This document shows positions 2,315 to 22,873 of a DNA stretch of 64,000 nucleotides, piece after piece. The translations under genes were made by a program, and so were the position numbers. Position 1 is the first letter of the stretch; each line of letters starts with the position of its first letter. Below the pieces are notes generated by a model. It saw nothing but the letters and a program-made list of their open reading frames with translations, made no database searches and was not told where the DNA came from. The DNA is taken from positions 1,645,662 through 1,709,661 of the forward strand of contig NZ_FOAF01000001.1 of the NCBI RefSeq assembly GCF_900109575.1, written 5' to 3'. The DNA is from Olivibacter domesticus (lineage in GTDB: Bacteria; Bacteroidota; Bacteroidia; Sphingobacteriales; Sphingobacteriaceae).

Positions 2315-2701
2315 ATGAATAGCTATCACATTCTTGTTATTGAAGATGATGAACTGATGCAGAAGGTCATGCATTTTATTTTATCCAAAGAGGGCTATAC
2401 AGTTACCGTGAAGAGTAACGGAAAAGAGGGCTTGGAAGCATTGCAAGATGTTGAAAATAAGTTCGACTTAATAATTACTGATTTAATGATGCCGCATGCC
2501 AATGGATTTGAAATACTTAACGTTGCCCGGCAGACGGGTAATGGTGGAATTCCGGTTATTATTGTGAGCAATTTAAGTAATGAACAGATGATTCTAGATG
2601 GTTTTACAATGGGTGCTTCCGACTATGTTAAAAAACCTATTATGGCAGGTGAGCTCGTTTTACGGGTGAAGCGTTTGCTAAACAGCCCAAAGCTTGTCTA
2701 A
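2315..2701 (+). CDS. Single-domain response regulator (CheY-like), first gene of the polysaccharide locus
   Basis: This 128-residue protein is a receiver domain and nothing else: acidic pocket IEDDE near the start, phospho-acceptor Asp in LIITDLMMP, Ser/Thr switch in VIIVSN and Lys in YVKKPI. Having no output domain, it should signal by protein-protein contact. Eight bases separate it from the HEAT-repeat gene, and the whole block to 11970 runs in one direction with minimal gaps, so it is probably the regulatory input to the synthase complex. The hybrid kinase at 12093 is the nearest candidate phosphodonor. Confidence 0.92.
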   Translation: MNSYHILVIEDDELMQKVMHFILSKEGYTVTVKSNGKEGLEALQDVENKFDLIITDLMMPHANGFEILNVARQTGNGGIPVIIVSNLSNEQMILDGFTMGASDYVKKPIMAGELVLRVKRLLNSPKLV

Positions 2702-2709
2702 ACTGTATT

Positions 2710-3849
2710 ATGCTAAACATGCTGCCTATGTTTAAACTTTCTTTACCGGATGGACCTTTTGCCATCGAAATAGCTTCGATTCTCATTGGGGTTGCGGTTT
2801 TTTCAACCTTGCTGGCCTATATTTCAATGCTCATTTATCGATTGAAGGGTTATGTGGGACAAAAAAGAGCAGATAACACGATTCCGCTTGTCGATAATCT
2901 CTTACTTGAGAAAGTGTTATTGCATCCGCAGATTAATACGGAAATACCAAAAGTAGAGATGGTTGAGCTAGCTAAGTCTTTTGATATAAAAGAACTGAAT
3001 CCAGGCTGGGCAAAACACTTGTTGATAGCGAGACTGGTAAACTACAGAAAGAACGTCCGTGGCAATATAGGAAATGCTATCCGTTCGCTCTTTATCCAAC
3101 TAGAACTGGATAGCGTGTGTTTAAAAATGCTCCGCTCGAGAAAATGGTATAAAAAAGCAAAGGCGCTATATATACTTGTAGAAATGGAGATTGTGATTCC
3201 GGACGTAACACTCCTGCCACTTACTAACAGTCATAATCATCATCTCCGTTCTGCTGCTAGACTGGCCTATATTAAACTGAGCAAAAATGATCCATTTAAG
3301 TTTTTCGATGTAGTTACCGAGCCATTATTACAATGGGATCAGGTAGAGCTTTTCCGCGTGATAACGAGTTCGGAAAATTTCTCGATGCCAAACTTCGCAC
3401 GGTGGATTACCTACAGTTCCAATAAGTCGGTTGTGTCGTTCTGTCTAAAACTTGTTGTGCATTATATGCAGTTAGAGGCGGTACCCGCTGTTATACGCCT
3501 TTTAGACAACAAAGATCATTTTTTAAGAGCCAACGCCATTAATGCATTGGGCAAGATGGATGTAGATGAGGTAGCAGACCAATTGCTGCATATGTATCAT
3601 AACCAGCCGATCATTTGTCAAACTGAAATTTTGAAAGCCCTTGGCCGTTTTAGAAATCAGCAGGCAAAAGAGTTTTTGAAACGAGAGTTTCTACATTCCA
3701 ACGATTTTAACCTACGTAAACATGCAGCTCGCTCCTTAATAAATATTTTATCTAAGGAAGATGTATTGATTAAAGAGCTCATGAACAATGCGACGAAGGA
3801 AAGTCTCATGATTTTGAAACATTGCATGGATCCGCTAATCAAATTTTAA
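2710..3849 (+). CDS. HEAT-repeat protein with N-terminal membrane anchor
   Basis: In this 379-residue protein a single N-terminal membrane helix (about residues 15-40) is followed by a cytoplasmic region of helical repeats. The C-terminal half shows HEAT-like units (for example HFLRANAINALGKMDVDEVA and NDFNLRKHAARSLINILS). HEAT solenoids are scaffolds for protein-protein contacts. The gene sits between a receiver gene (8-base gap) and the first GT2 synthase (1-base gap), so the likely role is to link the receiver to the membrane synthases. That role is inferred from context; no enzymatic motif is visible. Confidence 0.8.
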   Translation: MLNMLPMFKLSLPDGPFAIEIASILIGVAVFSTLLAYISMLIYRLKGYVGQKRADNTIPLVDNLLLEKVLLHPQINTEIPKVEMVELAKSFDIKELNPGWAKHLLIARLVNYRKNVRGNIGNAIRSLFIQLELDSVCLKMLRSRKWYKKAKALYILVEMEIVIPDVTLLPLTNSHNHHLRSAARLAYIKLSKNDPFKFFDVVTEPLLQWDQVELFRVITSSENFSMPNFARWITYSSNKSVVSFCLKLVVHYMQLEAVPAVIRLLDNKDHFLRANAINALGKMDVDEVADQLLHMYHNQPIICQTEILKALGRFRNQQAKEFLKREFLHSNDFNLRKHAARSLINILSKEDVLIKELMNNATKESLMILKHCMDPLIKF

Positions 3850-3850
3850 T

Positions 3851-5290
3851 ATGGAGAAAGTAAGTATTAGGGAAGTGTTTGCGCAATTTTTCGAAGGAGC
3901 TGTTTTTGCATATGGACTGACCCTTTTGCTGATTTACGCCCTATTGGCTTTTTTTTCCTTGATAGCGGTAAAACGTTATAAACGATTGGATGATCTGCAA
4001 AGCCTGAATGACTTAGTTGCCTCTTCGCTTACACCTGGTATTACCGTCTTAGCGCCGGCATATAATGAAGGTCTAACGATTATCATGAACGTGCGATCCT
4101 TGCTTACCCTGAATTATCCAAATTACGAGGTAATTATCATTAACGATGGCAGCGAAGATACGACACTTTTACAAATGGAGGAAGAGTTTGATCTTCTATT
4201 AATCGATTACGCTTATAATGAACGCATTATCACCCAGCCCGTTAAGGGAGTTTATAAATCGAAGAACCCTGCCTATTCAAAGTTGACGGTTATTGATAAG
4301 GTAAATGGCAAAAGCAAGGCCGATGCAGTAAATGCAGGCATCAATGCCGCCAATTACGCCCATTTTGTATGTACTGATGTCGATTGCGTGCTGCATAAAG
4401 ACACCTTGTTAGAACTAATAAAGCCAGTTTTGCAAGAGGAGAAAAAGCGAGTCATCGCTGTAGGAGCTACCTTACGATTAGGCAATTCTTGCGATTTTGA
4501 TCATGGAGTAATGATACGCATGCGTCCTCCCCGTCAACTATTGGCTCGTTTTCAGGAAGTTGAATATATCAGAGCCTTTGTGATGGGAAAAATGGGATGG
4601 TCTGTATTAAACAGTGTACCCAACGTTTCAGGTGGCTTAGGACTTTTTGATAAGGAGGTGGCCGTAAGTGCAGGAGGTTATGATCACCAGTCGTTCGGTG
4701 AAGACATGGAACTTATGATTCGCATGTGTCGATTTTCCCTTGATAATGGGATCGATTATGTTATTCATTATTTGCCCAAAACCCTATGTTGGACAGAAGG
4801 ACCCGCAACGATCAAGGTGTTTATGCGGCAACGAACGCGTTGGGCTAGAGGGCTTGCCCAACTTATGTATACACACTTTAGCATGGTGTTGCGGCCGAAA
4901 TATAAAACCATGGGAATGGTTGTGATGCCTTATAATTTCTTGTTCGAACTATGTGCGCCACTTATTGAATTTATTGGTATCCTGATTTACCTTTTTATGG
5001 CACTCACCGGGGTAGTCAATTGGCCTTATGCTGTTATTTTACTAATATTTGTATACACATATGCGGTGATGATTACCACCTTCGCTATTCTCACAGATCA
5101 ATTAGCTTTTCGATATTATAAAACTTGGAAGGAAGTGTTACTTCTTTGCACTACTCCGCTGATGGAGTTTTTCATCTACCATCCCTTAACTGTTATTTTT
5201 TCGATAAAAGGCTATCTACAATTCTTGGGAGGAAAAAAGCAAAGCTGGGGTAATATGCAAAGACAAGGGATGGGCACAAAAAAAATATAA
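3851..5290 (+). CDS. Processive membrane glycosyltransferase, family GT2 (first of tandem pair)
   Basis: This 479-residue inner-membrane glycosyltransferase has the plan of cellulose, PNAG and hyaluronan synthases: one N-terminal helix (about 15-40), a cytoplasmic GT-A domain, then several C-terminal helices (about 360-470). The four processive GT2 motifs are present: D99 in NDGS, D176xD178 in TDVDC, E284-D285 in GED, and Q327-W331 (QRTRW). Polymerisation from a nucleotide sugar with co-export is therefore likely; the sugar cannot be read from sequence. There is no PilZ domain, so direct c-di-GMP control is not indicated. Only one base separates it from each neighbouring GT or HEAT gene. Confidence 0.93.
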   Translation: MEKVSIREVFAQFFEGAVFAYGLTLLLIYALLAFFSLIAVKRYKRLDDLQSLNDLVASSLTPGITVLAPAYNEGLTIIMNVRSLLTLNYPNYEVIIINDGSEDTTLLQMEEEFDLLLIDYAYNERIITQPVKGVYKSKNPAYSKLTVIDKVNGKSKADAVNAGINAANYAHFVCTDVDCVLHKDTLLELIKPVLQEEKKRVIAVGATLRLGNSCDFDHGVMIRMRPPRQLLARFQEVEYIRAFVMGKMGWSVLNSVPNVSGGLGLFDKEVAVSAGGYDHQSFGEDMELMIRMCRFSLDNGIDYVIHYLPKTLCWTEGPATIKVFMRQRTRWARGLAQLMYTHFSMVLRPKYKTMGMVVMPYNFLFELCAPLIEFIGILIYLFMALTGVVNWPYAVILLIFVYTYAVMITTFAILTDQLAFRYYKTWKEVLLLCTTPLMEFFIYHPLTVIFSIKGYLQFLGGKKQSWGNMQRQGMGTKKI

Positions 5291-5291
5291 A

Positions 5292-6800
5292 ATGATTCAA
5301 GAAATCAGTCATATAACCGAACATATAGTATTCATTTACGGTTGTACGCTCTTGTGTATATATACTTTGCTTGCCTATATGGCCTTACAGGGCGTGCGCA
5401 AATTTAAACGCAGAAATGACTATATGGATTACGATAAAGTTCTCGGCTCAGAATTACTTCCGGGTATTTCTGTTGTGGCACCAGCGTTTAACGAGGGGCT
5501 CTCAATTATCAGTAATGTGCGTTCGCTGCTTACACTCAATTATCCCAAGTTTGAAGTTGTGATCGTGAACGACGGAAGTACAGATAATACTCTCGAGCAG
5601 CTCATCGTTGAATTTGAAATGCAAGAAGTGGATTTCGCCTATGACGAACAGATCGTAACACAGCCCGTCAAACGGATTTTTAAATCTCGGAAAGCTGTAT
5701 ACGGCAATCTAATAGTAGTTGATAAGGTGAATGGAAAGAGCAAGGCTGATGCTTCCAATGCCGGTATAAATGCCTCCACCTATAATTATTTCTTATGTAC
5801 AGATGTTGATTGCCTGCTCGATCGCAATACGCTGATACAGTTGATCAAACCATTTCTGGAAGAAGAAGAGAAAAAAATAAAGGAGGTTGGAGAACCATGT
5901 CCGGAATGTGGTTACGTGCATGTGATTGAAGATAATGTACGTGTTATCGCCTCGGGTGCTACGCTACGTTTAGGTAACTCCTGTGAGGTAGAAGAAGGCG
6001 TAATCACACGTATGAGACCGCCAAGACAACTGCTTCCGCGCTTTCAGGAGATGGAGTATATCCGTGCCTATGTGCTCGGTAAAATGGGATGGAGCGCGAT
6101 GAATGCTGTGCCAAATGTATCAGGTGGTTTAGGGCTTTTCGATCGGGAGATAGCTGTTAAAGCGGGTGGTTATGATGCCAAATCCTTTGCGGAAGACATG
6201 GATATTATTACCCGTATGTGCGCTTACATGATCGAGAATAAAATGAAATACGCAATCCGATACATTCCTGTTACGCTGTGTTGGACGGAAGGGCCAGCTA
6301 CTTTAAAGGTTTTTGGACGTCAGCGTACGCGTTGGGGAAGAGGATTGGCCGAAATTATGAGTATTCATGGCAGGCTTATTTTTAGGCCAAAATATCGGAA
6401 GCTTGGTATGATTGTGATGCCTTATAATCTCTTTTTTGAGTTTTTGGCCCCAATTATTGAAACACTCGGTGTTTTTTATTATATCTATCTTATCCTTTCC
6501 GGTAGCGTTAATTGGCCTTATGCTGTGCTACTTCTAGTGTTTGCCTATCTCTTTTCTGTGATGATCAGCAGTTTAGCAGTTCTGTGGGATCAAATAACTT
6601 TTCGTTATTATAAGACTTGGAAAGAGGTTGTAGGACTGTGCCTGATGGCTTTCCTGGAACCTTTGATATATCACCCTTTAATAGTGTTTTTTGCCTTAAA
6701 AGGATACTTCAACTTCGCAACGGGAAAAAAACACTCTTGGGGAAATATGCAGCGGCAAGGTTTTGGAAAAAAGAAACCCGCCATGGCAGTAACCAAATAA
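5292..6800 (+). CDS. Processive membrane glycosyltransferase, family GT2 (second of tandem pair)
   Basis: This 502-residue protein is clearly a paralogue of the preceding gene and is collinear with it along its length. It keeps NDGS, TDVDC, AED and QRTRW and the same membrane plan. The main difference is an insertion of about 20 residues near 195-220 that carries a Cys pair (C203-P-E-C206). A single CxxC cannot form a full zinc site alone but could complete one across a dimer. Two catalytically complete synthases side by side suggest a heteropolymer, or a heterodimeric synthase. It starts one base after the upstream stop. Confidence 0.92.
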   Translation: MIQEISHITEHIVFIYGCTLLCIYTLLAYMALQGVRKFKRRNDYMDYDKVLGSELLPGISVVAPAFNEGLSIISNVRSLLTLNYPKFEVVIVNDGSTDNTLEQLIVEFEMQEVDFAYDEQIVTQPVKRIFKSRKAVYGNLIVVDKVNGKSKADASNAGINASTYNYFLCTDVDCLLDRNTLIQLIKPFLEEEEKKIKEVGEPCPECGYVHVIEDNVRVIASGATLRLGNSCEVEEGVITRMRPPRQLLPRFQEMEYIRAYVLGKMGWSAMNAVPNVSGGLGLFDREIAVKAGGYDAKSFAEDMDIITRMCAYMIENKMKYAIRYIPVTLCWTEGPATLKVFGRQRTRWGRGLAEIMSIHGRLIFRPKYRKLGMIVMPYNLFFEFLAPIIETLGVFYYIYLILSGSVNWPYAVLLLVFAYLFSVMISSLAVLWDQITFRYYKTWKEVVGLCLMAFLEPLIYHPLIVFFALKGYFNFATGKKHSWGNMQRQGFGKKKPAMAVTK

Positions 6801-6833
6801 ACATAACGTCAATCATCGGATAAATTTTTAAAC

Positions 6834-9698
6834 ATGAAAGTCGTAAAATTATATTTCGTCATTCTATTCCTCAGTTCTTTTATAAGGGAAACACAGGCAC
6901 AATTGTTCGAGAGAAAGGATCAAGCAGATACCTGGATGACCCGCGCCCAGCAAGCGCTTAAAAAAGGAAACTATCCAAAGGCGGTGGAATATGCTGAACA
7001 CGCTTTTAGCGAAAGGAAAAATGATGCCGACGTAAAACTACTCCTAGTTCGTAGCTATATACTGAACAAACAAGGTGTTAAGGCGAGACCTTTGGTGAGA
7101 GAAATAATTCGAGAGCATCCTGAATATCGAGATGCCTACCTGTACGGAATCAATATCGAACTGAACAGTCGCCAGCTGGCAGCAGCTGAGTCTATTGCAA
7201 ACCAGGCTATCCAGCAATTTCCCAATGATATTGATTTTATGGTAAAGCGATTGAGCATCTTGGACGAATCGCAGAAGTATATTCGAGCTGAAGATTATGC
7301 GGAGAACCTGCTGCGAAAATATCCAGATAACCAAAGGGTAAAGGATGCCTATACGGCACACTATGTGCAAAGTGCGCAACACTATAGAAGAGAAAATCTG
7401 GAACAACGTGCACTACAAGACTTAAACAAAGCGTTGGCTATTGATCCAGGTCATCATGATGCCCGTGAATTGTTGAAGAGTATCAACAAAGGCTCGGAAA
7501 ATATAAACGATCGATTGCAGCAGATTGAAGCAGCGCTGGAAAGTAAGCCGGGCGACTATAGTTTGTTGCTGGAGAAATTGAATATTCTCCGCGAAACCTA
7601 TCACTATGCTGAAGCATTAACTATTTGGCAACAGCTTCATAGACTTTTTCCAAGTGATACTAAAGTAAACGGCCTTGAGGTGGAATTGCGTAAGGAGGCG
7701 GCGACGTTCTATGCGCAAACAGATCCTTATTCCTTATATATTTCGTTATTAGATAAAAATCCTAATGATATTGAGACCCTTCGTAAATTAATTGCTTGGA
7801 GTTTAAGCAGAGGGGCTTACCGCGAGGGCCTGAGCTGGGTGAACAAAGGATTGCGACGAAATCCTAATGCTTTTGAGCTGCTTGCACAGAAAGTAGATTT
7901 ACTGGAATATACACAACGTTTTACGGAGGCGGCTGCGCTTGCGCAGCAGTTATACCAACAACGTCGGACAGACGACTGGAAAGAGCGCGTGGTTTATCTT
8001 AAGAATGCGAGTGCCCGTGAGTATATTGCGCAACAGCAATATCCAGAAGCACTGGACGAAGTGTCAGCAGGGTTGGTGTTGAATCCGCAAGATCCAGATT
8101 TATTGCGCACGCAGATTAATATTTATGCTTTGCAAAAAAGAATTAACCTTGCGATCAACGCTATCCGCACACTGAATCAGGTAGCACCCAGCAATCGTCT
8201 GCGTTTGCAGGAAGGCGTACTACTTATAGAGACGAAGCAATATGATGAAGGGCTATCTATTTTGCATCAGTTGCTGGAAGCTGAACCAACAAATGAAGAG
8301 ATTAAGCAGGCGTGGCTCGATCAAAACTTGGCCATCGGCAGAGATTTTATGCAACAAGAGGAGTTTCAGCTCGCAGTGGGTCCCTTGCGTAACGTTTTGC
8401 AAGTGCAAGCCAATAATCGTGATGCGTTGGATTACCTCGTCAACCTATACAGTGGGATAAATCAAGTGGACAGTGCCTTGTTTTTTGCAGATCAAGCATT
8501 ACAAGCTTTTCCCGACGATAAAGGTATTTTACTAAAGAAATCGGCCGTGTTGACGCAGATGAAACGGTATCAAGAAGCCAACGCCATTACAGAACAATTA
8601 ATTCGGCGATATCCCTATACAAAGAACTACCTAACGAGCTATTTGGAAAATCAGTACCTTGCTGCGTCTGCTTATAAAAAGGAAGGAGAACTAGATAGTG
8701 CTATCGCGATTTATCAAAAATTGCTTAGCTATGCTCCAAAGGATTCAACCGCTTTGCGTAGCCTGACTGATTACTACCTAGAGCAAAAAGATTATTCCCA
8801 AGCACTTACTTTTGCCGAACGAGGCGTGGCGGCCCATCCCGAGTTGGGAGTATTTATGCTGAGAAAGGCCCAAGCATTAGAAGGGCAAGCTAACTTCGCT
8901 GCCGCGTCAGCTGCTGCGGATTCAGCTTTTATGCAGGCACCCACCTTGGTTAACAGGTCCTATGCCGATTATTTAAAAAGCAAAACCCTTAAAAATCAAT
9001 TTGGCCTATTTTTTCTAAAGAGCTCTTACGATTATTCTGATGAGAATTACGATATAGCTACTATTGAGTACCGCCGGTTTACTAAACATGGATCATGGGC
9101 AACCCGTATAAATTATGCCGGACGAAAACAGGGCACAGGATTACAAGGCGAGTTGGAATTATATTATAACCACAATAAAAGTCTGTATTCCTATGCCACT
9201 GCAGCCTATGCTAGTAAGCTTGTGTTTCCAGAATGGCGGTTAGGGTATTCTTTGTTCAAAAACCTAAAAAAAGAGTGGGAAGTTGAACTTGGAGTTCGTT
9301 ATTTAAAGGCAGATAGTAACTATTCCGCATTCTCTGGCGTTGCTTCCGTTGGTAAAACAATAGGCGATTTTTGGTTTAACCTGCGCGGTTATGCTATTTT
9401 TGACCAAGAAAATACTAATAGCTCTTTTAACCTAGGATCTCGGTACTACATGAACAGACGGCAGGATTATTTTTCAGTAAATTTAGGATTAGGTACTTCA
9501 CCTGATGACCGAAGCCGATTGGTATTATTCCCGAATCTGCAAGGGCTTCTTACACGCTTTGTGGGGGCAGGTTTTAATAAAACATTTGCCTATCGCACTA
9601 CTGTAGGAATCAATGCCACTTGGATTACCCAAAAAATAGGGGACGATATTTATCAAAACCAACATGATATCTATTTTACCTTGATGCGTAAATTTTAA
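6834..9698 (+). CDS. TPR-repeat protein with YaiO-type outer-membrane beta-barrel
   Basis: This 954-residue exported protein has a signal peptide ending near ETQA-Q (about residue 22), a long array of tetratricopeptide repeats (about 30-700) and a C-terminal region of alternating aromatic beta strands ending in F (about 720-954), typical of the YaiO outer-membrane barrel family. The plan of periplasmic TPR superhelix plus barrel is that of PgaA, BcsC and NfrA, which pass polysaccharide through the outer membrane. Lying directly after two GT2 synthases, it is the probable exporter of their product. Confidence 0.88.
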   Translation: MKVVKLYFVILFLSSFIRETQAQLFERKDQADTWMTRAQQALKKGNYPKAVEYAEHAFSERKNDADVKLLLVRSYILNKQGVKARPLVREIIREHPEYRDAYLYGINIELNSRQLAAAESIANQAIQQFPNDIDFMVKRLSILDESQKYIRAEDYAENLLRKYPDNQRVKDAYTAHYVQSAQHYRRENLEQRALQDLNKALAIDPGHHDARELLKSINKGSENINDRLQQIEAALESKPGDYSLLLEKLNILRETYHYAEALTIWQQLHRLFPSDTKVNGLEVELRKEAATFYAQTDPYSLYISLLDKNPNDIETLRKLIAWSLSRGAYREGLSWVNKGLRRNPNAFELLAQKVDLLEYTQRFTEAAALAQQLYQQRRTDDWKERVVYLKNASAREYIAQQQYPEALDEVSAGLVLNPQDPDLLRTQINIYALQKRINLAINAIRTLNQVAPSNRLRLQEGVLLIETKQYDEGLSILHQLLEAEPTNEEIKQAWLDQNLAIGRDFMQQEEFQLAVGPLRNVLQVQANNRDALDYLVNLYSGINQVDSALFFADQALQAFPDDKGILLKKSAVLTQMKRYQEANAITEQLIRRYPYTKNYLTSYLENQYLAASAYKKEGELDSAIAIYQKLLSYAPKDSTALRSLTDYYLEQKDYSQALTFAERGVAAHPELGVFMLRKAQALEGQANFAAASAAADSAFMQAPTLVNRSYADYLKSKTLKNQFGLFFLKSSYDYSDENYDIATIEYRRFTKHGSWATRINYAGRKQGTGLQGELELYYNHNKSLYSYATAAYASKLVFPEWRLGYSLFKNLKKEWEVELGVRYLKADSNYSAFSGVASVGKTIGDFWFNLRGYAIFDQENTNSSFNLGSRYYMNRRQDYFSVNLGLGTSPDDRSRLVLFPNLQGLLTRFVGAGFNKTFAYRTTVGINATWITQKIGDDIYQNQHDIYFTLMRKF

Positions 9699-9705
9699 GA
9701 CATGC

Positions 9706-11970
9706 ATGCATATGACGACCTATAGAACAAGTTTCATTCTCTGTTTACTGCTTGTCAGTATTTCCGCCTGTTCTTCCGCATCACTCCCTGTTGTTATCAA
9801 AGGTGTGGCAACGAGTGAGATTATCCTGACTAGCTATGCCACTGCACGCGAAGAGCAAGCAGCGCATGTGCTGCAGCGGCATGTCGAGTTAATAACAGGT
9901 ACACGTATTCCGATTGTAACAGGAGCCACATCTGCTAAGAAAACACATATCTGGATCGGACAAGCTGCCCTTGATAAAAAAGGCGATCTCGAAACGATCA
10001 CCTTAGCCGGGGAAGGTCACGCTTTGCTAACCGAGGCGCCAAATGTATACATTGTCGGACATAAGGGGAAGAGCGTTCTTTATGGCGTGTATAGCCTCCT
10101 TGAAACCCATTTCGGTGTCCGCAAATACGATGCCGGCCCTGTAAGCTTTAAAAAGCGAAGCGATTTAGTTTTGCCGGATCATTTGCACGAGCTGTTTGAA
10201 TCCCCCTTTATATATAGAGAATCTTTTTATCCAACGTCTACCAATGCTGAATATTTGGATTGGCACAAATTACACCGATTTGAAGATCTGTGGGGCGTTT
10301 GGGGGCATTCCTTTTTTAAATTTCTCCCGCCCGAAACCTATTTTAAGGCGCACCCCGAATATTATGCGTCGGTGAATGGAAAACGCCAGGCCACTCAGCT
10401 GTGCCTAAGCAACGCGGCCGTTTTACAATTAACAATCGCTTGGTTTAAAGAAAAAATAGCGGCTAATCCAGACGCTAGCTATTGGTCTATCGCTCCTATG
10501 GACGGGGCAGGTTATTGTACCTGTTCACTATGCAGCAAAGCAGATGCAGAAGAAGGTGGCCCGCAGGGTTCTCTGATCCGTTTTGTAAACGCTATAGCAA
10601 AAGAGTTTCCTGCGCAGCAATTTACCACCTTGGCATACGGATATACAGCCAACGCACCCCGCAAAACTAAACCAGCTAAAAACGTTTTCATTCAGCTGAG
10701 TACGATCGACGCCAATCGGCAGCTCCCCCTCTCGTCGGAACCAAAATCTGCTGCCTTTAGGAAACAATTGCAAGATTGGGCTGGCTGTACCGATAATTTA
10801 TTTATTTGGGATTATACTACGCAGTTTACCGCTTACCTAAATCCTTTTCCAATGTATGATACCTACCAAGAGAATATGCAGTATCTATCCGCTCATGGTG
10901 TAAAAGGAGTATTTGAACAAGGTGGTGGTTCTACTTTTTCAGATATGGCGCCTCTGGTTTCTTATTTACAAGCAAAATTACTTTGGAATCCAAAAGCAGA
11001 CCCCTTTGCTATCCGCAAAGACTTTCTAAATGGTTACTACGGAAAAGCTGCTTCCTTTATAGACGCTTACCTAAATATGTTGTTGAAGGCGCGCGATGAA
11101 AGCCACGCTATTTTGGATATTTATGGCAGTCCGATATTAAGTAGGACTAACTATCTTAGTCCACAATGGATTGAACGCTATAGTGAGCTATTGGATGAGG
11201 CTGAGGCATCAGTAGAAGGCAGTCCCTTATTTTCAAAGCGTGTGGAGGCCGTTCGCTTAAGCCTTGAATATGCTGTTTTGCAACAGTCGCGAAGTTTCGG
11301 CGTATATCCACATGGTTACTTAGAAAAGCTCGGTAGCGCCTATCAGGTAAAAACAAATTGGCCAGCTCGTATAAAGCATTTCGTTTTCCAAGCTAAAGAA
11401 CATGGAGTACAAGAGTTAGCAGAAGGCGGGGCATCACCAGATGCATATGCCGCTGAATGGCAGGAGATATTTGCCAATCCCTATTTACCGTCTCTTTTAC
11501 TAGGGCAGCAAGTAGAATTAAAAGGTGATTATGTGCTTGATTATCCTGCAAACGGACCGCAAACATTAACAGACGGTTTAGTAGGCAATACCGATTTTAG
11601 TTATAACTGGTTGTTATTTGAAGGGCTTGATGCCGATGCAATCATTAAGTTGCCCTTGCTAGCAAACCAATCAATATCGCTGCGGTTTAATTACCTTATA
11701 GATCCCCGCCACTATATATTTTCGCCTTTACAAGTGCTTATTCAAGCCTCACGCGATGGCAAAAATTTTCAAACGCTAAAAGAGCAATCATTAGAAGAAA
11801 ACTATACAGAAGGCACTAAGGTACAGCAAAAAGAACTTACATTTCAAATTTCCAGTGAGATGAAATACATGAGATTAATACTGAAATGCCCAAACGAGCT
11901 CCCGAACTGGTTTTCGGGTGCACGTACGAGAAAACCACTTATCGCCTTGGATGAAATAACCTTAAAATAA
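9706..11970 (+). CDS. DUF4838 lipoprotein, glycosidase-like
   Basis: This 754-residue protein has a lipoprotein signal (LLLVSISAC, Cys at about 22-23). An N-terminal domain resembles the alpha-glucuronidase/GH20-type accessory domain (about 25-160). The DUF4838 region (about 190-450) has family features such as the Cys cluster YCTCSLC and an aromatic-rich pocket. The C-terminal ~150 residues look like a carbohydrate-binding beta-sandwich. It follows the exporter by 7 bases, so a role in trimming or modifying the exported glycan, as PgaB does for PNAG, is reasonable. Catalytic residues are not established for DUF4838. An alternative Met lies two codons downstream of the start used. Confidence 0.85.
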   Translation: MHMTTYRTSFILCLLLVSISACSSASLPVVIKGVATSEIILTSYATAREEQAAHVLQRHVELITGTRIPIVTGATSAKKTHIWIGQAALDKKGDLETITLAGEGHALLTEAPNVYIVGHKGKSVLYGVYSLLETHFGVRKYDAGPVSFKKRSDLVLPDHLHELFESPFIYRESFYPTSTNAEYLDWHKLHRFEDLWGVWGHSFFKFLPPETYFKAHPEYYASVNGKRQATQLCLSNAAVLQLTIAWFKEKIAANPDASYWSIAPMDGAGYCTCSLCSKADAEEGGPQGSLIRFVNAIAKEFPAQQFTTLAYGYTANAPRKTKPAKNVFIQLSTIDANRQLPLSSEPKSAAFRKQLQDWAGCTDNLFIWDYTTQFTAYLNPFPMYDTYQENMQYLSAHGVKGVFEQGGGSTFSDMAPLVSYLQAKLLWNPKADPFAIRKDFLNGYYGKAASFIDAYLNMLLKARDESHAILDIYGSPILSRTNYLSPQWIERYSELLDEAEASVEGSPLFSKRVEAVRLSLEYAVLQQSRSFGVYPHGYLEKLGSAYQVKTNWPARIKHFVFQAKEHGVQELAEGGASPDAYAAEWQEIFANPYLPSLLLGQQVELKGDYVLDYPANGPQTLTDGLVGNTDFSYNWLLFEGLDADAIIKLPLLANQSISLRFNYLIDPRHYIFSPLQVLIQASRDGKNFQTLKEQSLEENYTEGTKVQQKELTFQISSEMKYMRLILKCPNELPNWFSGARTRKPLIALDEITLK

Positions 11971-12092: not shown

Positions 12093-15000
12093 ATGAACCA
12101 TCCAGTTCCTAAAAATGAGAAAGAACGTGTACAAGCCCTGAGAAATTATGGTATACTTGACTCTTTGGAAGAGGATGAATTTAATAACATTACCGAAGCG
12201 GCAAGCTTAATATGTGATACCTCCATTTCACTTATATCTCTTATTGACGAAAACCGACAGTGGATAAAAGCTAAAAAAGGAATTGATATTACCGAGACAC
12301 ACAGAAGTGATTCGGTATGTCAGTATACCATTTTAGGTGATAAAATTTTTGAAGTTACGGATTTGTCGAAAGATGTGCGATTTTTGGGCAATCGGGATTT
12401 GACGGACGGTTCTCAGCTTTCCTTTTATGCGGGATTTCCTTTAATAGATCCTAATGGTTACGCATTGGGAGCGTTATGCGTTATTGACAAACAGCCTAAA
12501 AAACTTAACAGAAAACAAAAGCGATTATTGGAGCTTTTAGCTAAAAATGTAGTTACTTTAATTTTAGAAAGAAAACACACGCAAGAGGCCAAATATTTTG
12601 CCAAGCTATTTGTCATATCCAAAGATCTTATTAGTTCCGTTATGTTAGACGGAACAATAAAAATGGTAAACCCAGCTTTTCGAAATCTTTTAGGATGGAA
12701 AGAGGAAGATTTATTAGAACGGAACATTTTGGAATTTGTTTACCAGGAAGATCTGAAAAAAACGGAAGAAGAACTCGGGAGCAGGAGTTTAGGAAAGTCG
12801 ACAATCCATTTTACGAATCGTCTATTGACGAAGGATGGTAATCACAGAACTATTCAATGGTCAGTAAATCCTAACAGCATTGAAAATCAAGTATTTGTTG
12901 TCGGCCGGGATATTACTGTAGAAACGATCAAAAATCAGGAACTTGAGATAAGCGAAAATAAACTTCGTTCTTTTTTTGAAAATTCCCAAGGGCTTATGTG
13001 CACGCACGACCTATCGGGAAATTTTTTATCAGTTAACCAAGCAGGTGCAGCCATATTAGGCTACGAAAAGAGTGAAATTCTAGGCATGTCGTTATTCGAC
13101 TTGGTTCCTTCTTACCATCATGAATTTTTGCAAAATTATCTAAAAAAAATCAAAGAAAACCGAAAGGATTCAGGTTTAATGAAAACACTTCACAAAAATG
13201 GAGATCCTTTATTTTGGCTATATAACAATGTTTTAGAGCAAGATGCAGACGGAAACGACTATGTAATCGGTAATGCAATTGATATGACCGAACGTTTAAA
13301 GTTGGAACGGGATCTAAAAAAAACAAAGGAAATGTTAGAGCAGACCAACCTCGTTTCAAAAGTAGGTGGCTGGGAGGTCGATTTGGTTAATAATCGGACA
13401 ATATGGTCGGATGTTACCAAGCGCATTCATGAAGTACCTGCAGATTATGAGCCAAACACTCAAAAAGCTTTAGCTTTTTACGAAGATGAAAGTCGGGAAG
13501 TTATTCAAGAGGCTTTTCAAGACGCCATTACAAAGGGAATACCTTATGATCTCGAATTACAGTTGCTTACAGCAAAAGGGCGGTTAATATGGGTCAGAAG
13601 CTATGGTCAACCTGAAATAGTTGATGGTGTTTGCAAACGTGTGTACGGTGCCTTTCAAGACATTACGGAAAGTCATGAAAAGAACCAGGAATTAAAAAAA
13701 GCAAAACTCTTGGCAGAACAGGCTAGTAAAGCCAAATCTGAATTTTTAGCAAATATGAGCCATGAGATTAGAACACCTCTCAACGGCGTTATAGGTTTCA
13801 CAGATCTTATATTAAAAACAGCTTTAAATGAAACACAGAAAGAGTATCTCGCAATTGTAAATGACTCTGCAATTTCGCTTTTGGCAATCATAAATGATAT
13901 CTTGGATTTCTCTAAAATAGAAGCGGGTAAACTTGAGTTGAATATAGAGAAGGTCGACTTATTTGATTTAGGCGAACAGGTTACTAATGTAATCACTTAC
14001 CAAGCACAAAAGAAAGGCTTGGAGTTACTTCTTGATATCTCTCCTTATCTTCCTCGTTTCATATGGGCTGATGACGCAAGGCTAAAACAGATATTGATTA
14101 ATTTATTAGGAAATGCCATCAAATTCACCGAAGCAGGAGAAATTGAACTTAAAATAGAAGAAATCGAAAGAAGTTCGCAAGAAAATAAATTAACACTAAG
14201 ATTCTTCGTAACCGATACGGGAATCGGAATTCAACCTGATAAACAGCAGAAGATTTTTGAAGCCTTTGCACAAGAGGATAGCACAATTAGTAAGAAATAT
14301 GGTGGAACCGGTTTGGGATTAACAATTTCCAATAAGCTACTAGGATTGATGGGAAGCACATTAGCTTTAAAAAGCGATGTGGGATTTGGTAGTACATTTT
14401 ATTTCGATCTCGAACTTTCGTACGAAGATGGCGATCCAGCGCATAATGGAGATTTGGTAGACATCCAATCTGTTTTAGTTGTGGACGATAATGAACACAA
14501 CCGAATGATATTGAAAAGAATGCTATCATCAAAACAAATCGATGTTGAATCGGTAAACAATGGTTTTGATGCCTTGCAAAAGTTATATGACGGTAAAAGC
14601 TATGATTTATTGATTATAGATTACCATATGCCTATCATAGACGGATTGGAGGTGATCCGGAAAATACGGCAAAACACTATTAGTGAAAATTTTCAAGTGC
14701 CCATTATTTTGCTACATAGTTCATCTGAAGATGGTACAATTATCAGAGAGACGAAAGACTTAGCGGTAAGCCATTTAACAAAGCCGATTAATTCGAGAGA
14801 CATGTATGAAGCACTAAAAAAAATACATAACATCGGTAACGTTGAGGTATTTGGTATCGATAGTTCAACATCAGATATCGTCACTTCTTCTTTTGAGGTA
14901 TTGATTGCTGAAGACAATACGGTAAATATGTTGCTAACCAGTACAATTATTACGAGAGTTGCACCTAAGATTCGCATTTCCAAGGCAGAGAATGGTTTAC

Positions 15001-15611
15001 TGGCCGTCGAAGCATGTAGAGCGCAGATGCCAGATCTTATCTTTATGGATATCCAAATGCCTGAGCTCAATGGCTTGGAAGCAGCACGCCGTATTCGACT
15101 GCTACCTTACGGCAATGATGTGATTATTATAGCCCTTACCGCGGGCAATGTGAAGGGAGAAAGGGAAAAGTGTCTAGCCGCTGGTTTTAATGATTTTATT
15201 GCCAAGCCTATTGTTGAAAAAGATATAGAATCGAAAATCAAAAAGTGGTTAGCGCCAAAAAATGAGGAGGATATAGATGAACAAATGCATTTTAACAGCA
15301 AAAAAATTGAAGAGTATGCTGATGGGGACGAACAATTTGCCCGAGAACTCATAAAAGTTACCATCTCCGAATTGGAAAAAGCGAGTCAAAAACTTCAGGA
15401 AGGAAAGGAGTTAGATCTACTTTCTCTTAATCAGTTAGGACATAAACTTTCAGGAACAGCAAGTGCCGCGGGTTTAATTGTGTTGACAGAATTAGCCAAT
15501 AAGTTAGAGAAATCAAATAGTTTAGAGGAGGTGAATGCAAATATGTTGGTAAGCCAAATCCAACATGAAATACAAGTGATTAATGCGTTTTTTAAACGTA
15601 AATTTAGCTAA
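12093..15611 (+). CDS. Hybrid sensor histidine kinase GAF-PAS-PAS-PAS-HisKA-HATPase-REC-REC-HPt
   Basis: A 1172-residue, apparently cytoplasmic phosphorelay protein. Domains in order: GAF (about 20-160), three PAS domains (about 170-285, 290-410, 420-535), HisKA with H557 in MSHEIRTPLNG, HATPase (NLLGNAIKF, DTGIGI, GGTGLGL), receiver 1 with D843, receiver 2 with D986, and an HPt with H1117 in GHKLSGTA. It therefore contains every step of a four-step relay except the final receiver. The stand-alone receiver genes at 15627 (16 bases downstream) and 2315 are natural acceptors. No membrane segments are seen, so the input is probably a small molecule or redox state. Confidence 0.95.
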   Translation: MNHPVPKNEKERVQALRNYGILDSLEEDEFNNITEAASLICDTSISLISLIDENRQWIKAKKGIDITETHRSDSVCQYTILGDKIFEVTDLSKDVRFLGNRDLTDGSQLSFYAGFPLIDPNGYALGALCVIDKQPKKLNRKQKRLLELLAKNVVTLILERKHTQEAKYFAKLFVISKDLISSVMLDGTIKMVNPAFRNLLGWKEEDLLERNILEFVYQEDLKKTEEELGSRSLGKSTIHFTNRLLTKDGNHRTIQWSVNPNSIENQVFVVGRDITVETIKNQELEISENKLRSFFENSQGLMCTHDLSGNFLSVNQAGAAILGYEKSEILGMSLFDLVPSYHHEFLQNYLKKIKENRKDSGLMKTLHKNGDPLFWLYNNVLEQDADGNDYVIGNAIDMTERLKLERDLKKTKEMLEQTNLVSKVGGWEVDLVNNRTIWSDVTKRIHEVPADYEPNTQKALAFYEDESREVIQEAFQDAITKGIPYDLELQLLTAKGRLIWVRSYGQPEIVDGVCKRVYGAFQDITESHEKNQELKKAKLLAEQASKAKSEFLANMSHEIRTPLNGVIGFTDLILKTALNETQKEYLAIVNDSAISLLAIINDILDFSKIEAGKLELNIEKVDLFDLGEQVTNVITYQAQKKGLELLLDISPYLPRFIWADDARLKQILINLLGNAIKFTEAGEIELKIEEIERSSQENKLTLRFFVTDTGIGIQPDKQQKIFEAFAQEDSTISKKYGGTGLGLTISNKLLGLMGSTLALKSDVGFGSTFYFDLELSYEDGDPAHNGDLVDIQSVLVVDDNEHNRMILKRMLSSKQIDVESVNNGFDALQKLYDGKSYDLLIIDYHMPIIDGLEVIRKIRQNTISENFQVPIILLHSSSEDGTIIRETKDLAVSHLTKPINSRDMYEALKKIHNIGNVEVFGIDSSTSDIVTSSFEVLIAEDNTVNMLLTSTIITRVAPKIRISKAENGLLAVEACRAQMPDLIFMDIQMPELNGLEAARRIRLLPYGNDVIIIALTAGNVKGEREKCLAAGFNDFIAKPIVEKDIESKIKKWLAPKNEEDIDEQMHFNSKKIEEYADGDEQFARELIKVTISELEKASQKLQEGKELDLLSLNQLGHKLSGTASAAGLIVLTELANKLEKSNSLEEVNANMLVSQIQHEIQVINAFFKRKFS

Positions 15612-15626
15612 ATAGGAAAAGAGCGT

Positions 15627-15995
15627 ATGTTGATTTTAATTGCGGAAGACGACGAACACCTTCGTAAGGTATTGCAAATCAGGCTGTTAAAAGATGGATA
15701 TCAAGTTATTGTAGCCACAGACGGCCAAGACGCGCTGGATAAGCTCTCGAGCCATTTTCCTGATTTAGTAATAACAGATATTGTGATGCCTTACATATCA
15801 GGGTTAGAGGTGGTTAAATTTGTAAAGGCAAATACAGAGAGGCAGGTTCCCGTGATTGTTCTTTCTGCTTTAGGCCAAGAGGAAATTGTGCAGGAAGCTT
15901 TCCTGTTGGGCGCCGATGATTTTATCGTTAAGCCATTTAGCCTCGCCGAGTTTGTGCTTCGTCTCAGACGATTTGCATTAATGATTAAAAACTGA
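15627..15995 (+). CDS. Single-domain response regulator (CheY-like)
   Basis: This 122-residue receiver has the acidic cluster AEDDE, phospho-acceptor Asp in LVITDIVMP, switch Ser in IVLSAL and Lys in IVKPF. It starts 16 bases after the hybrid kinase and is almost certainly its partner. There is no output domain. With the similar receiver at 2315 it brackets the polysaccharide locus. Confidence 0.92.
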   Translation: MLILIAEDDEHLRKVLQIRLLKDGYQVIVATDGQDALDKLSSHFPDLVITDIVMPYISGLEVVKFVKANTERQVPVIVLSALGQEEIVQEAFLLGADDFIVKPFSLAEFVLRLRRFALMIKN

Positions 15996-19426: not shown

Positions 19427-20107
19427 ATGAACTATAAACTAGTAAAAGACACTATACAATTGTTAGAACAATTTGAGATAGAAATGCAAGAGAAAGGTCA
19501 ACACACCTGCGATATTAAAGACTTCAAACATTGGATAGCCAACAGTTTTCGCGAAGAAGTGTCTATTCAAGAACCTTACTGGGAAGGTAAGGAAAAAGGT
19601 AGAACACCCGAAAGTGCTATCAATACACTTATCGTTCACATGAATCGATATGCCAAGACCTATTCTAAGTCGGCAATACACAATTCGGACTTTTCTACGC
19701 AGGAGGAATTTATATATCTGATAAATCTCAGGGCTTTTGGAGCGATGACCAAAATGGAACTTATCAAAAGAAATATTCAGGATAAGCCTGTTGGTATGCA
19801 GATTATCAACCGACTGATGAACCAAGGATGGGTAGAACAACGGGATTCTGAAACAGATAAGAGGAGCAAAATTATACATATTACAAAAAAAGGGTTACAG
19901 TCGCTAGACAAGCAGATGGACAAAATCCGTCAAGCGACGAAAATCGTTACAGGTGACCTGACCCATCCTGAAAAAATGGAACTGATAAGATTGTTGAACA
20001 AACTTGATCATTTTCATCAACCGATATTTTCTCAAAATATAGACAGTGCAGAGCTGTTGGAGCGAGTGGCTGATGGGAATTTATCAGTAAAAAATAAAAT
20101 ACAATGA
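19427..20107 (+). CDS. MarR-family regulator of the carotenoid operon
   Basis: This 226-residue protein has an N-terminal extension of about 80 residues and a winged helix-turn-helix (about 105-190) with the MarR wing sequence DKRSKIIHITKKG. Its last codons overlap the crtI start by four bases, so it is the first gene of the operon and probably its autoregulator. MarR repressors usually dissociate from DNA on binding a small aromatic ligand or on oxidation; which applies here cannot be read. Confidence 0.9.
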   Translation: MNYKLVKDTIQLLEQFEIEMQEKGQHTCDIKDFKHWIANSFREEVSIQEPYWEGKEKGRTPESAINTLIVHMNRYAKTYSKSAIHNSDFSTQEEFIYLINLRAFGAMTKMELIKRNIQDKPVGMQIINRLMNQGWVEQRDSETDKRSKIIHITKKGLQSLDKQMDKIRQATKIVTGDLTHPEKMELIRLLNKLDHFHQPIFSQNIDSAELLERVADGNLSVKNKIQ

Positions 20108-21597
20108 GAAAAAAGATAGCCATCATCGGTTCGGGAATTTCAGGACTTTCAGCGGCTGCCTATGCTGCAAAAAAGGGTAATGAGGTACATGTTTTCGAGA
20201 AAAATGGAAGTCCTGGTGGCCGCGCCAGACAGTTCAAAACTGATAATGGTTACACTTTTGATATGGGGCCGAGCTGGTATTGGATGCCTGATATTATCAA
20301 TGATTTCTTCCGTGACTTTGGTTATGAAACGAACGATTTTTATGATTTAACACCACTGAACCCGCAGTTTGAAATGATATTCTCTGATGGTACCATTTCC
20401 CTACCAAAAAATTATGAGGAGATGAAAATCTTATTTGAGAACCTAGAAAAAGATGCTGGGATAAAGCTCGACGAGTTTATGGAAGCAGCTCAGTACAAAT
20501 ACCATGTGGGGATGAAAGAATTTGTAAACAAGCCTTGTCATAACTGGTCAGAATTTGTTTCGCTAAAGATCGCCAAAAGTGCGTTTAAGTTGGATTTACT
20601 GTCCAACTTCCGAGATTATATAGGTAAATATTTTTCGAACGCCAAACTGAAAGCCTTGATGGAATTTCCGGTCATTTTTCTTGGCGCATCTCCTAAAAAT
20701 ATTCCAGCATTATATAGCTTAATGAACTATGGAGGATACGTTCTGGGCACTTGGTATCCCATGGGCGGATTTTATGAATTAGTAAAAGCCATGAAGACCG
20801 TTGCCGAGGTGCAGGGGGCAAAATTCCATTTTAACCATAACGTTGAGAAGCTTAATACGGAGAAGGGAAAAGTGAGATCGCTTACTATCAACAAGGAAAA
20901 ATGGGAATTTGATGTAGTGATTGCGTCGTCTGATTATCATCATACAGAAACGTTACTGGATGAAAAGTACAGGAACTATTCAGAAAACTATTGGGAAAGC
21001 AAAACATTCGCACCGTCCTGTCTCATTTACTATTTAGGATTTAAGGAGCCAATCACCCGCCTTAAGCATCATACGTTATTTTTTGAAAATGATTTTGACA
21101 AGCACATCGATGCTATTTATACGAATAAAAATTGGCCAGAAAAACCATTGTTTTATGCTTGTTGCCCTTCCAAAACAGATGCTGGTGTAGCTCCAGAAAA
21201 TCACGAAAATATTTTTCTGTTAATGCCTTTGGCAACAGGTATTAAAGATGATGAAAACACAAGAGAAAGGTATCTGCACGAAATGCTTCAAAGACTTGAA
21301 AAACATACTGGTACTCCCGATTTACAACTAAAAATAGATTATAAAAAAAGCTATTGTGCACGCGACTTTATCAGTGATTATAATGCGTATCGGGGTAATG
21401 CTTATGGATTGGCAAATACGTTGAAACAAACTGCGGTATGGAAGCCCTCTATAAGAAATAAACAATTATCTAACCTGTATTATGCGGGGCAACTGACTGT
21501 TCCCGGACCGGGTGTACCCCCGGCCATAATATCTGGAAAAATAGTTGCAACAGAAGTTGATAAGCTAAAAACAATCCGCCATGAAAAGGTTATATGA
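20104..21597 (+). CDS. crtI: Phytoene desaturase
   Basis: This 497-residue FAD enzyme introduces double bases of conjugation into phytoene to give lycopene. It has the N-terminal dinucleotide motif IIGSGISGLSAAAYAAKKG with the following E-x-PGGRA loop, and the C-terminal CrtI signature YYAGQLTVPGPGVPPAIISG. Length is normal for the family. It overlaps the MarR gene by 4 bases and crtB by 17 bases, so the three are translationally coupled. Confidence 0.95.
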   Translation: MRKKIAIIGSGISGLSAAAYAAKKGNEVHVFEKNGSPGGRARQFKTDNGYTFDMGPSWYWMPDIINDFFRDFGYETNDFYDLTPLNPQFEMIFSDGTISLPKNYEEMKILFENLEKDAGIKLDEFMEAAQYKYHVGMKEFVNKPCHNWSEFVSLKIAKSAFKLDLLSNFRDYIGKYFSNAKLKALMEFPVIFLGASPKNIPALYSLMNYGGYVLGTWYPMGGFYELVKAMKTVAEVQGAKFHFNHNVEKLNTEKGKVRSLTINKEKWEFDVVIASSDYHHTETLLDEKYRNYSENYWESKTFAPSCLIYYLGFKEPITRLKHHTLFFENDFDKHIDAIYTNKNWPEKPLFYACCPSKTDAGVAPENHENIFLLMPLATGIKDDENTRERYLHEMLQRLEKHTGTPDLQLKIDYKKSYCARDFISDYNAYRGNAYGLANTLKQTAVWKPSIRNKQLSNLYYAGQLTVPGPGVPPAIISGKIVATEVDKLKTIRHEKVI

Positions 21598-22417
21598 GGA
21601 ATTATCTTATGCCGTAAGCGAAGCTACAACCAAAAAGTATAGCACTAGTTTCTCATTTGGAATTCTGGCACTGCATCCCTCTATTCGGCCGTCTATTTAT
21701 GCGATTTATGGTTATGTAAGACTTGCTGATGAAATAGTTGACAGCTTTCACGATTATAATAAATCTGAGTTACTGACGCGGTTTAAAAACCAGACAACAG
21801 AGGCTTTAGATGAAGGCATCTCATTGAATCCTATCTTACAATCCTTTCAGGAAACGGTCAATAAATACAGTATCGATAGGAACCTTATCTACCAGTTTCT
21901 ACATAGTATGGAGATGGATCTAAAACCGGTGGAGTACAATTCTGACTTGTATCAGGAATATATCCTCGGTTCTGCGGAGGTAGTGGGATTGATGTGTTTA
22001 CAGATATTTGTAGAAGGCAATAAAGCAATGTACGAATTATTAAAACCTTATGCTATGAAATTAGGTTCTGTATTTCAGAAAGTCAATTTTTTAAGGGATT
22101 TAAAAGAAGATTACCACCTTTTAGGTCGTACTTATTTCCCAAATATTCAAATGGGTGTTTTTAATAATGAAATCAAAATGCAGATTGAGCAGGGAATTGA
22201 GATCGAATTTAAAGAAGCATTGAAAGGTATTAGAAAACTACCCAATTCTTCAAAATTCGGTGTGTATCTTGCCTACAGATATTATTTGTCTTTATTTCAA
22301 AAAATAAAAAAAATGCCTGCAGAAAAAATTATGCATCAACGTATACGCATTGATAACAGGCAAAAATTGTCTTTGGCAATGAGTAGTTACGTACAGTTTA
22401 AAATGGCCTTAGTATGA
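21581..22417 (+). CDS. crtB: Phytoene synthase
   Basis: This 278-residue squalene/phytoene synthase condenses two geranylgeranyl diphosphates to phytoene. Both aspartate-rich motifs are present: DEIVD in RLADEIVD and DLKED in NFLRDLKED. The start lies within the last codons of crtI. No GGPP synthase gene is in the window, so the precursor must come from elsewhere in the genome. Its stop overlaps the start of the next gene. Confidence 0.95.
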   Translation: MKRLYEELSYAVSEATTKKYSTSFSFGILALHPSIRPSIYAIYGYVRLADEIVDSFHDYNKSELLTRFKNQTTEALDEGISLNPILQSFQETVNKYSIDRNLIYQFLHSMEMDLKPVEYNSDLYQEYILGSAEVVGLMCLQIFVEGNKAMYELLKPYAMKLGSVFQKVNFLRDLKEDYHLLGRTYFPNIQMGVFNNEIKMQIEQGIEIEFKEALKGIRKLPNSSKFGVYLAYRYYLSLFQKIKKMPAEKIMHQRIRIDNRQKLSLAMSSYVQFKMALV

Positions 22418-22872
22418 AAATAGCATTATTGGTTTTTACAATGCTCTTGGGCAATCTTTTTACTTTGAATGCTTTAACCTTAGAAACTGTACGTAAGAAT
22501 TATCAGTTGGCAATTGTAGACAAAAGTATTTGCAGATCGATGATCCAACAATTAGAAAACACCCAAACAAGCCATATACATATGGCTTATTTGGGCGCGT
22601 TTCAAACGATTTGGGCAAGGCACACCTCTAACCCAATTAGTAAACTTAAAACGTTCAATAAAGGTAAAACGAATATTGACAAAGCAGTCCGAATGGTTCC
22701 GAATAGCGTTGAAATAATTTTTATTCGTTATTCGGTGCAGCGTAATAGCCCTGGATTTTTGAGATATAACGGCAACTTGAAAGAAGACAGAAACTTTTTG
22801 CACGAAAAATGGCATAGCATCACTTCTGAGACTTTAAAAACCATGGTGGAACAACTTTTAAATCGTAAATAA
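22414..22872 (+). CDS. Unknown exported protein inside the carotenoid operon
   Basis: A 152-residue protein begins with a signal peptide (about 1-20, …FTLNAL). The mature part is mainly helical with few cysteines and contains a conspicuous central sequence, IDKAVRMVPNSVEIIFIRYS. The start codon overlaps crtB's stop (ATGA), so it is firmly in the operon. I recognise no family. A periplasmic or outer-membrane role, such as carotenoid handling, is a guess from position only. Confidence 0.75.
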   Translation: MKIALLVFTMLLGNLFTLNALTLETVRKNYQLAIVDKSICRSMIQQLENTQTSHIHMAYLGAFQTIWARHTSNPISKLKTFNKGKTNIDKAVRMVPNSVEIIFIRYSVQRNSPGFLRYNGNLKEDRNFLHEKWHSITSETLKTMVEQLLNRK

Positions 22873-22873
22873 G

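Follow-up and report, generated by a model that had tools for sequence, protein, structure and literature searches.

We analyzed a stretch of 64,000 nt from Olivibacter domesticus (assembly GCF_900109575.1, contig NZ_FOAF01000001.1, positions 1,645,662 to 1,709,661 of the forward strand), hereafter called the window, and within it a six-gene locus that reads as a putative polysaccharide synthesis and export system. The six open reading frames (ORFs) lie on the + strand between positions 2315 and 11970 and, according to the window ORF list, are separated by only 8, 1, 1, 33, and 7 nt, as an earlier note made from the letters of this DNA had described (gaps of 1 to 33 bases). Scans of the window proteins with Pfam (listing at E 0.01) and NCBIfam recovered each of the families named there, namely, a receiver, a HEAT-repeat protein, two family 2 glycosyltransferases (GT2), a tetratricopeptide repeat (TPR) protein with a YaiO barrel, and a DUF4838 lipoprotein (Table 1). 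The description of the six genes stands, but a hybrid histidine kinase and a second lone receiver, encoded on the same strand 3' of them, had gone unmentioned.

Table 1. Genes of the putative polysaccharide locus and of the adjacent kinase-receiver pair, in window coordinates
Feature	Position	Strand	Length and family matches	Proposed role
Lone receiver (REC)	2315-2701	+	128 aa; Response_reg, 88 bits; without output domain	
HEAT-repeat protein	2710-3849	+	379 aa; Pfam HEAT_2	
GT2 synthase a (GT2a)	3851-5290	+	479 aa; GT2 Pfam families	
GT2 synthase b (GT2b)	5292-6800	+	502 aa; GT2 Pfam families	
TPR + YaiO outer-membrane barrel	6834-9698	+	954 aa; PF19413, 147 bits	Proposed exporter
DUF4838 lipoprotein	9706-11970	+	754 aa; PF16126, 293 bits	Putative glycoside-hydrolase-like processing
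Hybrid histidine kinase	12093-15611	+	1172 aa; PAS-PAS-HisKA-HATPase-REC-REC	Probable input kinase
Second lone receiver	15627-15995	+	122 aa	

Both synthases displayed intact catalytic motifs, TDVD, GEDM, and QRTRW for GT2a and TDVD, AEDM, and QRTRW for GT2b, and hydrophobic segments were found in the two proteins, those of GT2a at both termini. Judged from these features, both fit the processive type, with DxD, ED, and Q(Q/R)xRW motifs and predicted membrane segments. Across the GT2 set, DxD and ED were present in 112 of 114 sequences and Q(Q/R)xRW in 106 of 114. The best named family for both window enzymes was the poly-N-acetylglucosamine (PNAG) synthase PgaC, at 130.9 bits against a cut-off of 422.3, and comparison of GT2a with the PDB sequences returned just three weak matches. 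GT2a fell within the a group of the GT2 tree (starred set: 22 a sequences and that of locus L089) and GT2b within a joint group of a and b sequences. GT2b also harbors an insert, CPECGY-x-H, between its DxD and ED motifs; CPECG (CEECG in two cases) was found in all 22 b-paralogues, the window protein included, and in none of the 92 other GT2s, and this Cys-rich insert is perhaps a candidate metal site. Separately, two loci from the window's family (L166 and L169) carry, after HEAT, a long-branched GT2 without the DxD, ED, and QxxRW residues, possibly a dead enzyme with a regulatory role.

The protein encoded next scored well above the cut-offs of the YaiO family (PF19413, 147.4 of 23.9 bits; TIGR04390, 87.2 of 32 bits). 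Its structural model (pLDDT 86.9, pTM 0.48) contained 39 helices after the signal region, forming about 19 TPR-like pairs, and, C-terminal to these, 14 strands at residues 721 to 953. A fold search with the model returned, among the 50 matches listed, TPR-type and similar helical-repeat proteins, and thus added no information on the barrel.

The DUF4838 protein is a predicted lipoprotein whose Cys22 was kept in at least 90% of 20 rows. Its Pfam matches to GH67N and GH20b both remained below the cut-off, and its C-terminal part matched a beta-hexosaminidase entry of the PDB (6q63, E 7e-26). The other PDB matches, of alpha-glucuronidase and hexosaminidase type, were weak, and we therefore put aside the assignment of a definite enzymatic activity. 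Other loci carried other extracytoplasmic modules. A sulfatase-fold protein lay near 30 of 93 HEAT genes, together with DUF4838 in 3 cases; 11 of 31 such proteins were fusions with GT2. Sulfatases bear the signature CxPxR or SxPxR; CxPxR occurred in 0 of the 31 proteins and SxPxR in 1 (L040, well inside the domain), and we rejected the view of this partner as an ordinary sulfatase. In all five neighbors scanned (L203, L207, L208, L209, and L214), the gene immediately preceding HEAT encodes a CotH-kinase-like protein that seems to bear a signal peptide. The extracytoplasmic modules, DUF4838, sulfatase-fold, and CotH-like, vary between loci.

The first gene of the locus encodes a lone receiver in which the predicted phospho-acceptor Asp, the T/S, and the Lys are all present, as in a single-domain response regulator of the EpsW type. 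Among HEAT-adjacent receivers, the acceptor Asp was kept in 68 of 70 aligned rows and the Lys in 69. The receiver tree, which was built from a short alignment with few columns and leaves many forks open, placed 55 of these 70 rows in one group of 62 rows with 99% support, the remaining 7 rows being lone receivers as well; most HEAT-adjacent receivers thus grouped together, separate from the receivers of kinases. The HEAT protein showed its strongest hydrophobic stretch at residues 24 to 42 and a weak one at residues 153 to 171. Its AlphaFold2 model (pLDDT 86.3, pTM 0.73) has a long N-terminal helix (residues 17 to 70) followed by a solenoid, and residues 153 to 171 sit within solenoid helices. 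We propose that the protein consists of one N-terminal membrane helix and a HEAT solenoid and serves as an adaptor between receiver and synthase. A fold search of the model against the PDB returned general HEAT/ARM-type scaffolds with low TM-scores, and no specific function was assigned on this basis. Long HEAT proteins (520 to 931 aa) with extra parts were also encountered (L034 to L037, L041, L042, L049, L058, and L206); in the three scanned, no Pfam family apart from HEAT_2 was found.

We searched 296 genomes of the phylum with the HEAT protein alone and obtained matches in 49 genomes, at 59 places. The window accounts for one of these and 40 loci fetched wide for another 41, among them two weak matches (G044 and G228) fetched owing to their length; outside the wide fetch were G095, whose short locus (L016) has GT2 after HEAT, and 16 equally weak matches (E 2.8e-5 and worse). 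A search among relatives in the family added 6 wide loci, a weak place in G330 staying outside the fetch, and a class profile search newly found 21 genomes at 100 bits or more, 16 of which were fetched wide. In the resulting 62 loci, GT2 followed HEAT directly in every case (62/62 loci, 63/63 HEAT genes). The HEAT profile separated the family within the class, 39 of 295 genomes contributing 41 places at or above 100 bits, against 77 bits or less for general HEAT proteins; all 30 loci that it returned, 13 of them new, had GT2 next. When all routes were pooled, including loci derived from GT2b and YaiO searches, GT2 was next in 108 of 109 HEAT genes, and the single exception falls at the end of a contig. 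Directly upstream of HEAT stood a receiver domain in 68 of 108 cases, and a lone same-strand receiver in 64. YaiO was near 92 of the 109 HEAT genes, and lone receiver, GT2, and YaiO were all near in 77. By family codes (the loci from named species being uncounted), the HEAT-GT2 pair occurred in 24 families and the quartet of receiver, HEAT, GT2, and YaiO in 18.

The converse search, with YaiO alone, gave 73 places in 69 of the 296 genomes, 71 of them within fetched stretches. GT2 lay beside YaiO in 66 of these 71 places, contrary to a situation that the earlier note had considered fatal to a functional link, that of YaiO genes usually found without GT2; an adjacent HEAT-GT2 pair was found within 10 kb in 59 and a receiver in 51. 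HEAT and YaiO co-occurred strongly across the 296 genomes (both, 40; HEAT only, 9; YaiO only, 29; Fisher p 3e-22). Once the profile was applied, a HEAT-GT2 pair came to light near YaiO in 20 of the 29 YaiO-only genomes, and the matches in the nine HEAT-only genomes are all weak (E values from 2.8e-5 upward).

A GT2b scan of named species genomes yielded 23 loci, mostly from Chitinophaga, Taibaiella, Sediminibacterium, and metagenome-assembled genomes, with some near-copies among them (e.g., L071/L090 and L085/L086). All six genes were present in order in 18 of the 23, so that the order is not unique to this strain, the other outcome that the note had named as telling against its proposal. The five incomplete loci were cut by contig ends (L080 and L085), had no receiver called (L074), had one GT2 (L089), or had broken ORFs (L092). 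By gene content, the six-gene form is one variant of a four-gene core, with DUF4838 and the second GT2 as accessories of that variant. HEAT identity to the window protein was 34 to 55% in 20 named loci and, among 24 other genomes of its own family, no relative exceeded 33%; since the HEAT protein is closer in the named loci, the six-gene cassette was likely acquired horizontally by the window genome. Two of the 23 loci deserve separate mention. L079, on a contig labelled Beijerinckiaceae bacterium, bears a Chitinophagaceae-type six-gene locus and is probably a mis-binned contig. L092 (Chitinophaga sedimenti) reads as many short ORFs, through frameshifts or assembly errors, and was excluded from the HEAT-gene, GT2-motif, GT2-tree, and receiver-tree counts.

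The kinase encoded 3' of the cassette showed sub-threshold GAF and Hpt matches besides its called domains. In the congener G296, genes for a kinase, a receiver, HEAT, and GT2 follow one another without interruption. The window kinase shares 76% identity with the G296 one over residues 1 to 524 and 70% over residues 522 to 1163; for the second receiver of the window, which falls in the main HEAT-adjacent group, identity with the receiver next to HEAT in G296 is 61%. Of four congeners, G296 alone has HEAT, and it is also the one in which the kinase orthologue was found, the other three giving no or weak partial matches. Among loci with a receiver at slot -1, slot -2 held a kinase in 18 of 62, the highest value of any slot (next highest, 7 of 59). 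The window genome has a single HEAT protein of the cassette family; the second profile match, at 52 bits, belongs with the general HEAT proteins. Since the searches found no further family member in this genome, the kinase-receiver pair (12093-15995) most likely feeds the six-gene cassette. Because the pair is shared with the G296 locus (L171) but the cassettes are unlike and the stretches compared have no flanking genes in common, the comparison suggests that the HEAT-GT2 cassette moved or was replaced. The cassette has a G+C content of 0.41 to 0.44 and the kinase gene one of 0.36 to 0.38; as values equal to those of the cassette occur elsewhere in the window, this difference is of little weight.

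Post-translational control of synthase-dependent polysaccharides is said, in excerpts from one paper, to involve c-di-GMP frequently (PMC12802240). PilZ exceeded the cut-off in 0 of the 296 phylum genomes, with one match below it, and neither GGDEF nor PilZ had any match in the window genome, which thus gave no sign of c-di-GMP control. GGDEF was found in 157 of 296 phylum genomes and in only two of the window's class, and in none of the 31 class members having both HEAT and YaiO. A different arrangement was seen in family f17, whose members are assigned to the green sulfur bacteria on the strength of their BChl_A (FMO) protein, present in 8/8 f17 genomes tested (seven plus one), 0/2 others, and 0/14 controls. 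No receiver was detected in the seven f17 loci with the HEAT core, and the distance from HEAT to a GGDEF gene was at most 10 kb in six of them and about 13 kb in the seventh. The fullest order (L137) was YaiO, PAS-GAF-HD_5, NAD-dependent epimerase, HEAT, GT2, and CHASE3-GAF-PAS-GGDEF. The other f17 loci vary, some being cut by contig ends, and part of their genes were scanned; the epimerase is presumed in them from the same protein start. Its place beside the core supports a role in making a sugar polymer. This exchange of a receiver for a nearby GGDEF gene is the strongest hint among the comparative data that the receiver occupies the regulatory position of c-di-GMP.

Taken together, the intact GT2 motifs, the TPR scaffold with its modelled 14-strand barrel, the weak relationship of the lipoprotein to glycoside hydrolases, and the genomic association of YaiO with GT2 support the note's proposal of polysaccharide synthesis and export. 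Beyond this, we consider it probable that the locus encodes a synthase-dependent exopolysaccharide system in which a phosphorelay input replaces c-di-GMP and the phosphorylated receiver acts through HEAT. The hybrid kinase would pass phosphate to a lone receiver (the one starting at 2315, the one starting at 15627, or both), which would dock in its phosphorylated form on the membrane-anchored HEAT protein. HEAT would sit on GT2 and permit or block polymerization. The polymer built by the GT2s would pass through a membrane channel within the synthases themselves and then be conducted across periplasm and outer membrane by the TPR scaffold together with the YaiO barrel, and the DUF4838 lipoprotein may trim or modify it. 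Gene content, order, conservation, motifs, domain models, and a genome in which PilZ and GGDEF were not found are the observations behind this scheme; from them we infer the identity of the polymer, phosphotransfer, binding of receiver to HEAT and of HEAT to GT2, the direction of control, and export through YaiO. Phosphotransfer, receiver-HEAT binding, and export through YaiO are its weakest steps.

Several observations weigh against this reading. No receiver stood directly upstream of 40 of 108 HEAT genes, and no lone receiver was found within slots -4 to +6 for 24 of 109; 15 of 70 HEAT-adjacent receivers fell outside the main group of the few-column tree. Three genomes outside the class (G082, G147, and G176) combine the receiver form with a GGDEF gene in the genome, indicating that the input swap is not strict. 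The kinase of the window and that of G296 had no common flanking genes in the stretches compared. A HEAT-GT2 pair was undetected at 12 of 71 YaiO places and GT2 at 5, some of them at contig ends, and the 16 weak HEAT matches of the phylum search were left out of the locus counts. DUF4838 was near only 31 of 93 HEAT genes. Known exporters of PNAG, cellulose, and alginate have 16 to 18 strands, and the modelled YaiO barrel, with 14, would be narrower. Finally, gene neighborhood is not interaction.

The receiver is the point on which the most serious alternative turns. The polymer may be made and exported with HEAT as a constitutive synthase scaffold, the receiver being a co-transcribed phosphate sink or acting elsewhere. 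The 24 HEAT genes with no lone receiver in their surroundings, the general scaffold proteins returned by the HEAT fold search, and the receiverless core of green sulfur bacteria would all be expected under such a scheme. However, a lone receiver lies directly upstream in 64 of 108 cases, the HEAT-adjacent receivers mostly form a group distinct from the receivers of kinases, with the acceptor Asp retained in 68 of 70 rows, and the green sulfur loci without a receiver have other signalling genes nearby; we regard a purely constitutive scaffold as rather unlikely. Less probable still is that the GT2s transfer sugars to a lipid or protein or produce a short oligosaccharide, with YaiO as a porin or adhesin instead of a polymer exporter. 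A barrel of just 14 strands in the model would suit this, two GT2s could add two sugars successively, and the GT2 families also match non-processive enzymes. Yet both enzymes carry the Q-R-x-R-W processive motif, common to 106 of 114 sequences, their best named family is PgaC, though far under its cut-off, and NfrA, likewise a TPR protein with a pore, is proposed to secrete the exopolysaccharide of NfrB (excerpts from PMC8669469). That the six genes are a chance cluster of unrelated genes in one strain is scarcely credible, given the full order in 18 of 23 loci and the core in many families.

If regulated exopolysaccharide synthesis is the correct interpretation, the locus would provide a likely switch for surface polysaccharide in a phylum where PilZ is all but missing, a function for YaiO next to GT2s that can be put to the test, and naturally occurring exchanges of input through which synthase control could be dissected. 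More tentatively, and with somewhat less than even confidence, we suggest that HEAT is a phylum-wide adaptor with exchangeable input for processive synthases, taking its signal from a phosphorylated receiver in the absence of c-di-GMP proteins and linked to GGDEF/HD_5 proteins in green sulfur bacteria. Such an adaptor would explain how processive synthases are switched on and off in this phylum with hardly any PilZ. Elsewhere in the window, positions 20104 to 24128 hold an apparent carotenoid gene cluster, whose ORFs we take to be phytoene desaturase-like, phytoene synthase-like, hydroxylase-like, and cyclase-like.

We finally compared the locus with known systems. The earlier note had likened it to the PNAG and NfrA/NfrB systems, a likeness that we recover in the plan and not in membership of pga or nfr. 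The PNAG system is encoded by pgaABCD. PgaC is the best named match of the window GT2s, and a TPR-barrel exporter and a processing enzyme recur in the plan, but the scores fall far below the family cut-offs (PgaC, 130.9 of 422.3 bits; PgaA, 49.7 of 366.65 bits). As the note had said, the set is without PilZ and PgaB: neither PilZ nor a deacetylase family was listed at E 0.01 for the six proteins, the deacetylase search being limited to the locus and not the rest of the genome. The cellulose system (bcs) is likewise similar in plan, but TIGR03030 (BcsA/CelA) reached just 29.8 and 31.2 of 699.1 bits and PilZ is missing. In the E. coli yaiO-yaiX-yaiP-yaiS region, YaiO lies two genes (and an insertion element) from the putative glucosyltransferase YaiP, which is 23% identical to GT2a over 226 columns, but no receiver or HEAT gene is annotated there. 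We rejected E. coli YaiO as a close relative, since BLASTP gave no significant match to the window protein and only the Pfam family is in common; we know of no function established for it. Searches of open-access full texts, a scope outside which most subscription journals and bioRxiv preprints lie, gave no matching characterised system, in agreement with the note, no description of a receiver-HEAT-GT2-YaiO system, and no earlier account of a phosphorelay-gated processive synthase.

Two systems come closer in logic. NfrB and NfrA (NGR) of E. coli, as described in excerpts from PMC8669469, are an inner-membrane glycosyltransferase and an outer-membrane TPR/pore protein encoded in one operon, and the window locus likewise encodes a membrane glycosyltransferase together with an outer-membrane TPR/pore protein. 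It differs in its receiver-HEAT pair and its YaiO-family barrel, and the MshEN c-di-GMP domain that would mark an NfrA/NfrB-type system was unlisted for either window GT2 (Pfam, E 0.01). The other is that of Myxococcus xanthus, in which the phosphorylated single-domain response regulator EpsW is proposed to stimulate EpsZ by direct contact (excerpts from PMC12802240). EpsZ is a phosphoglycosyl transferase of a Wzx/Wzy pathway, and those excerpts mention no HEAT adaptor, whereas the target in the window would be a GT2 synthase; common to both is a lone receiver proposed to stimulate polysaccharide synthesis through contact.

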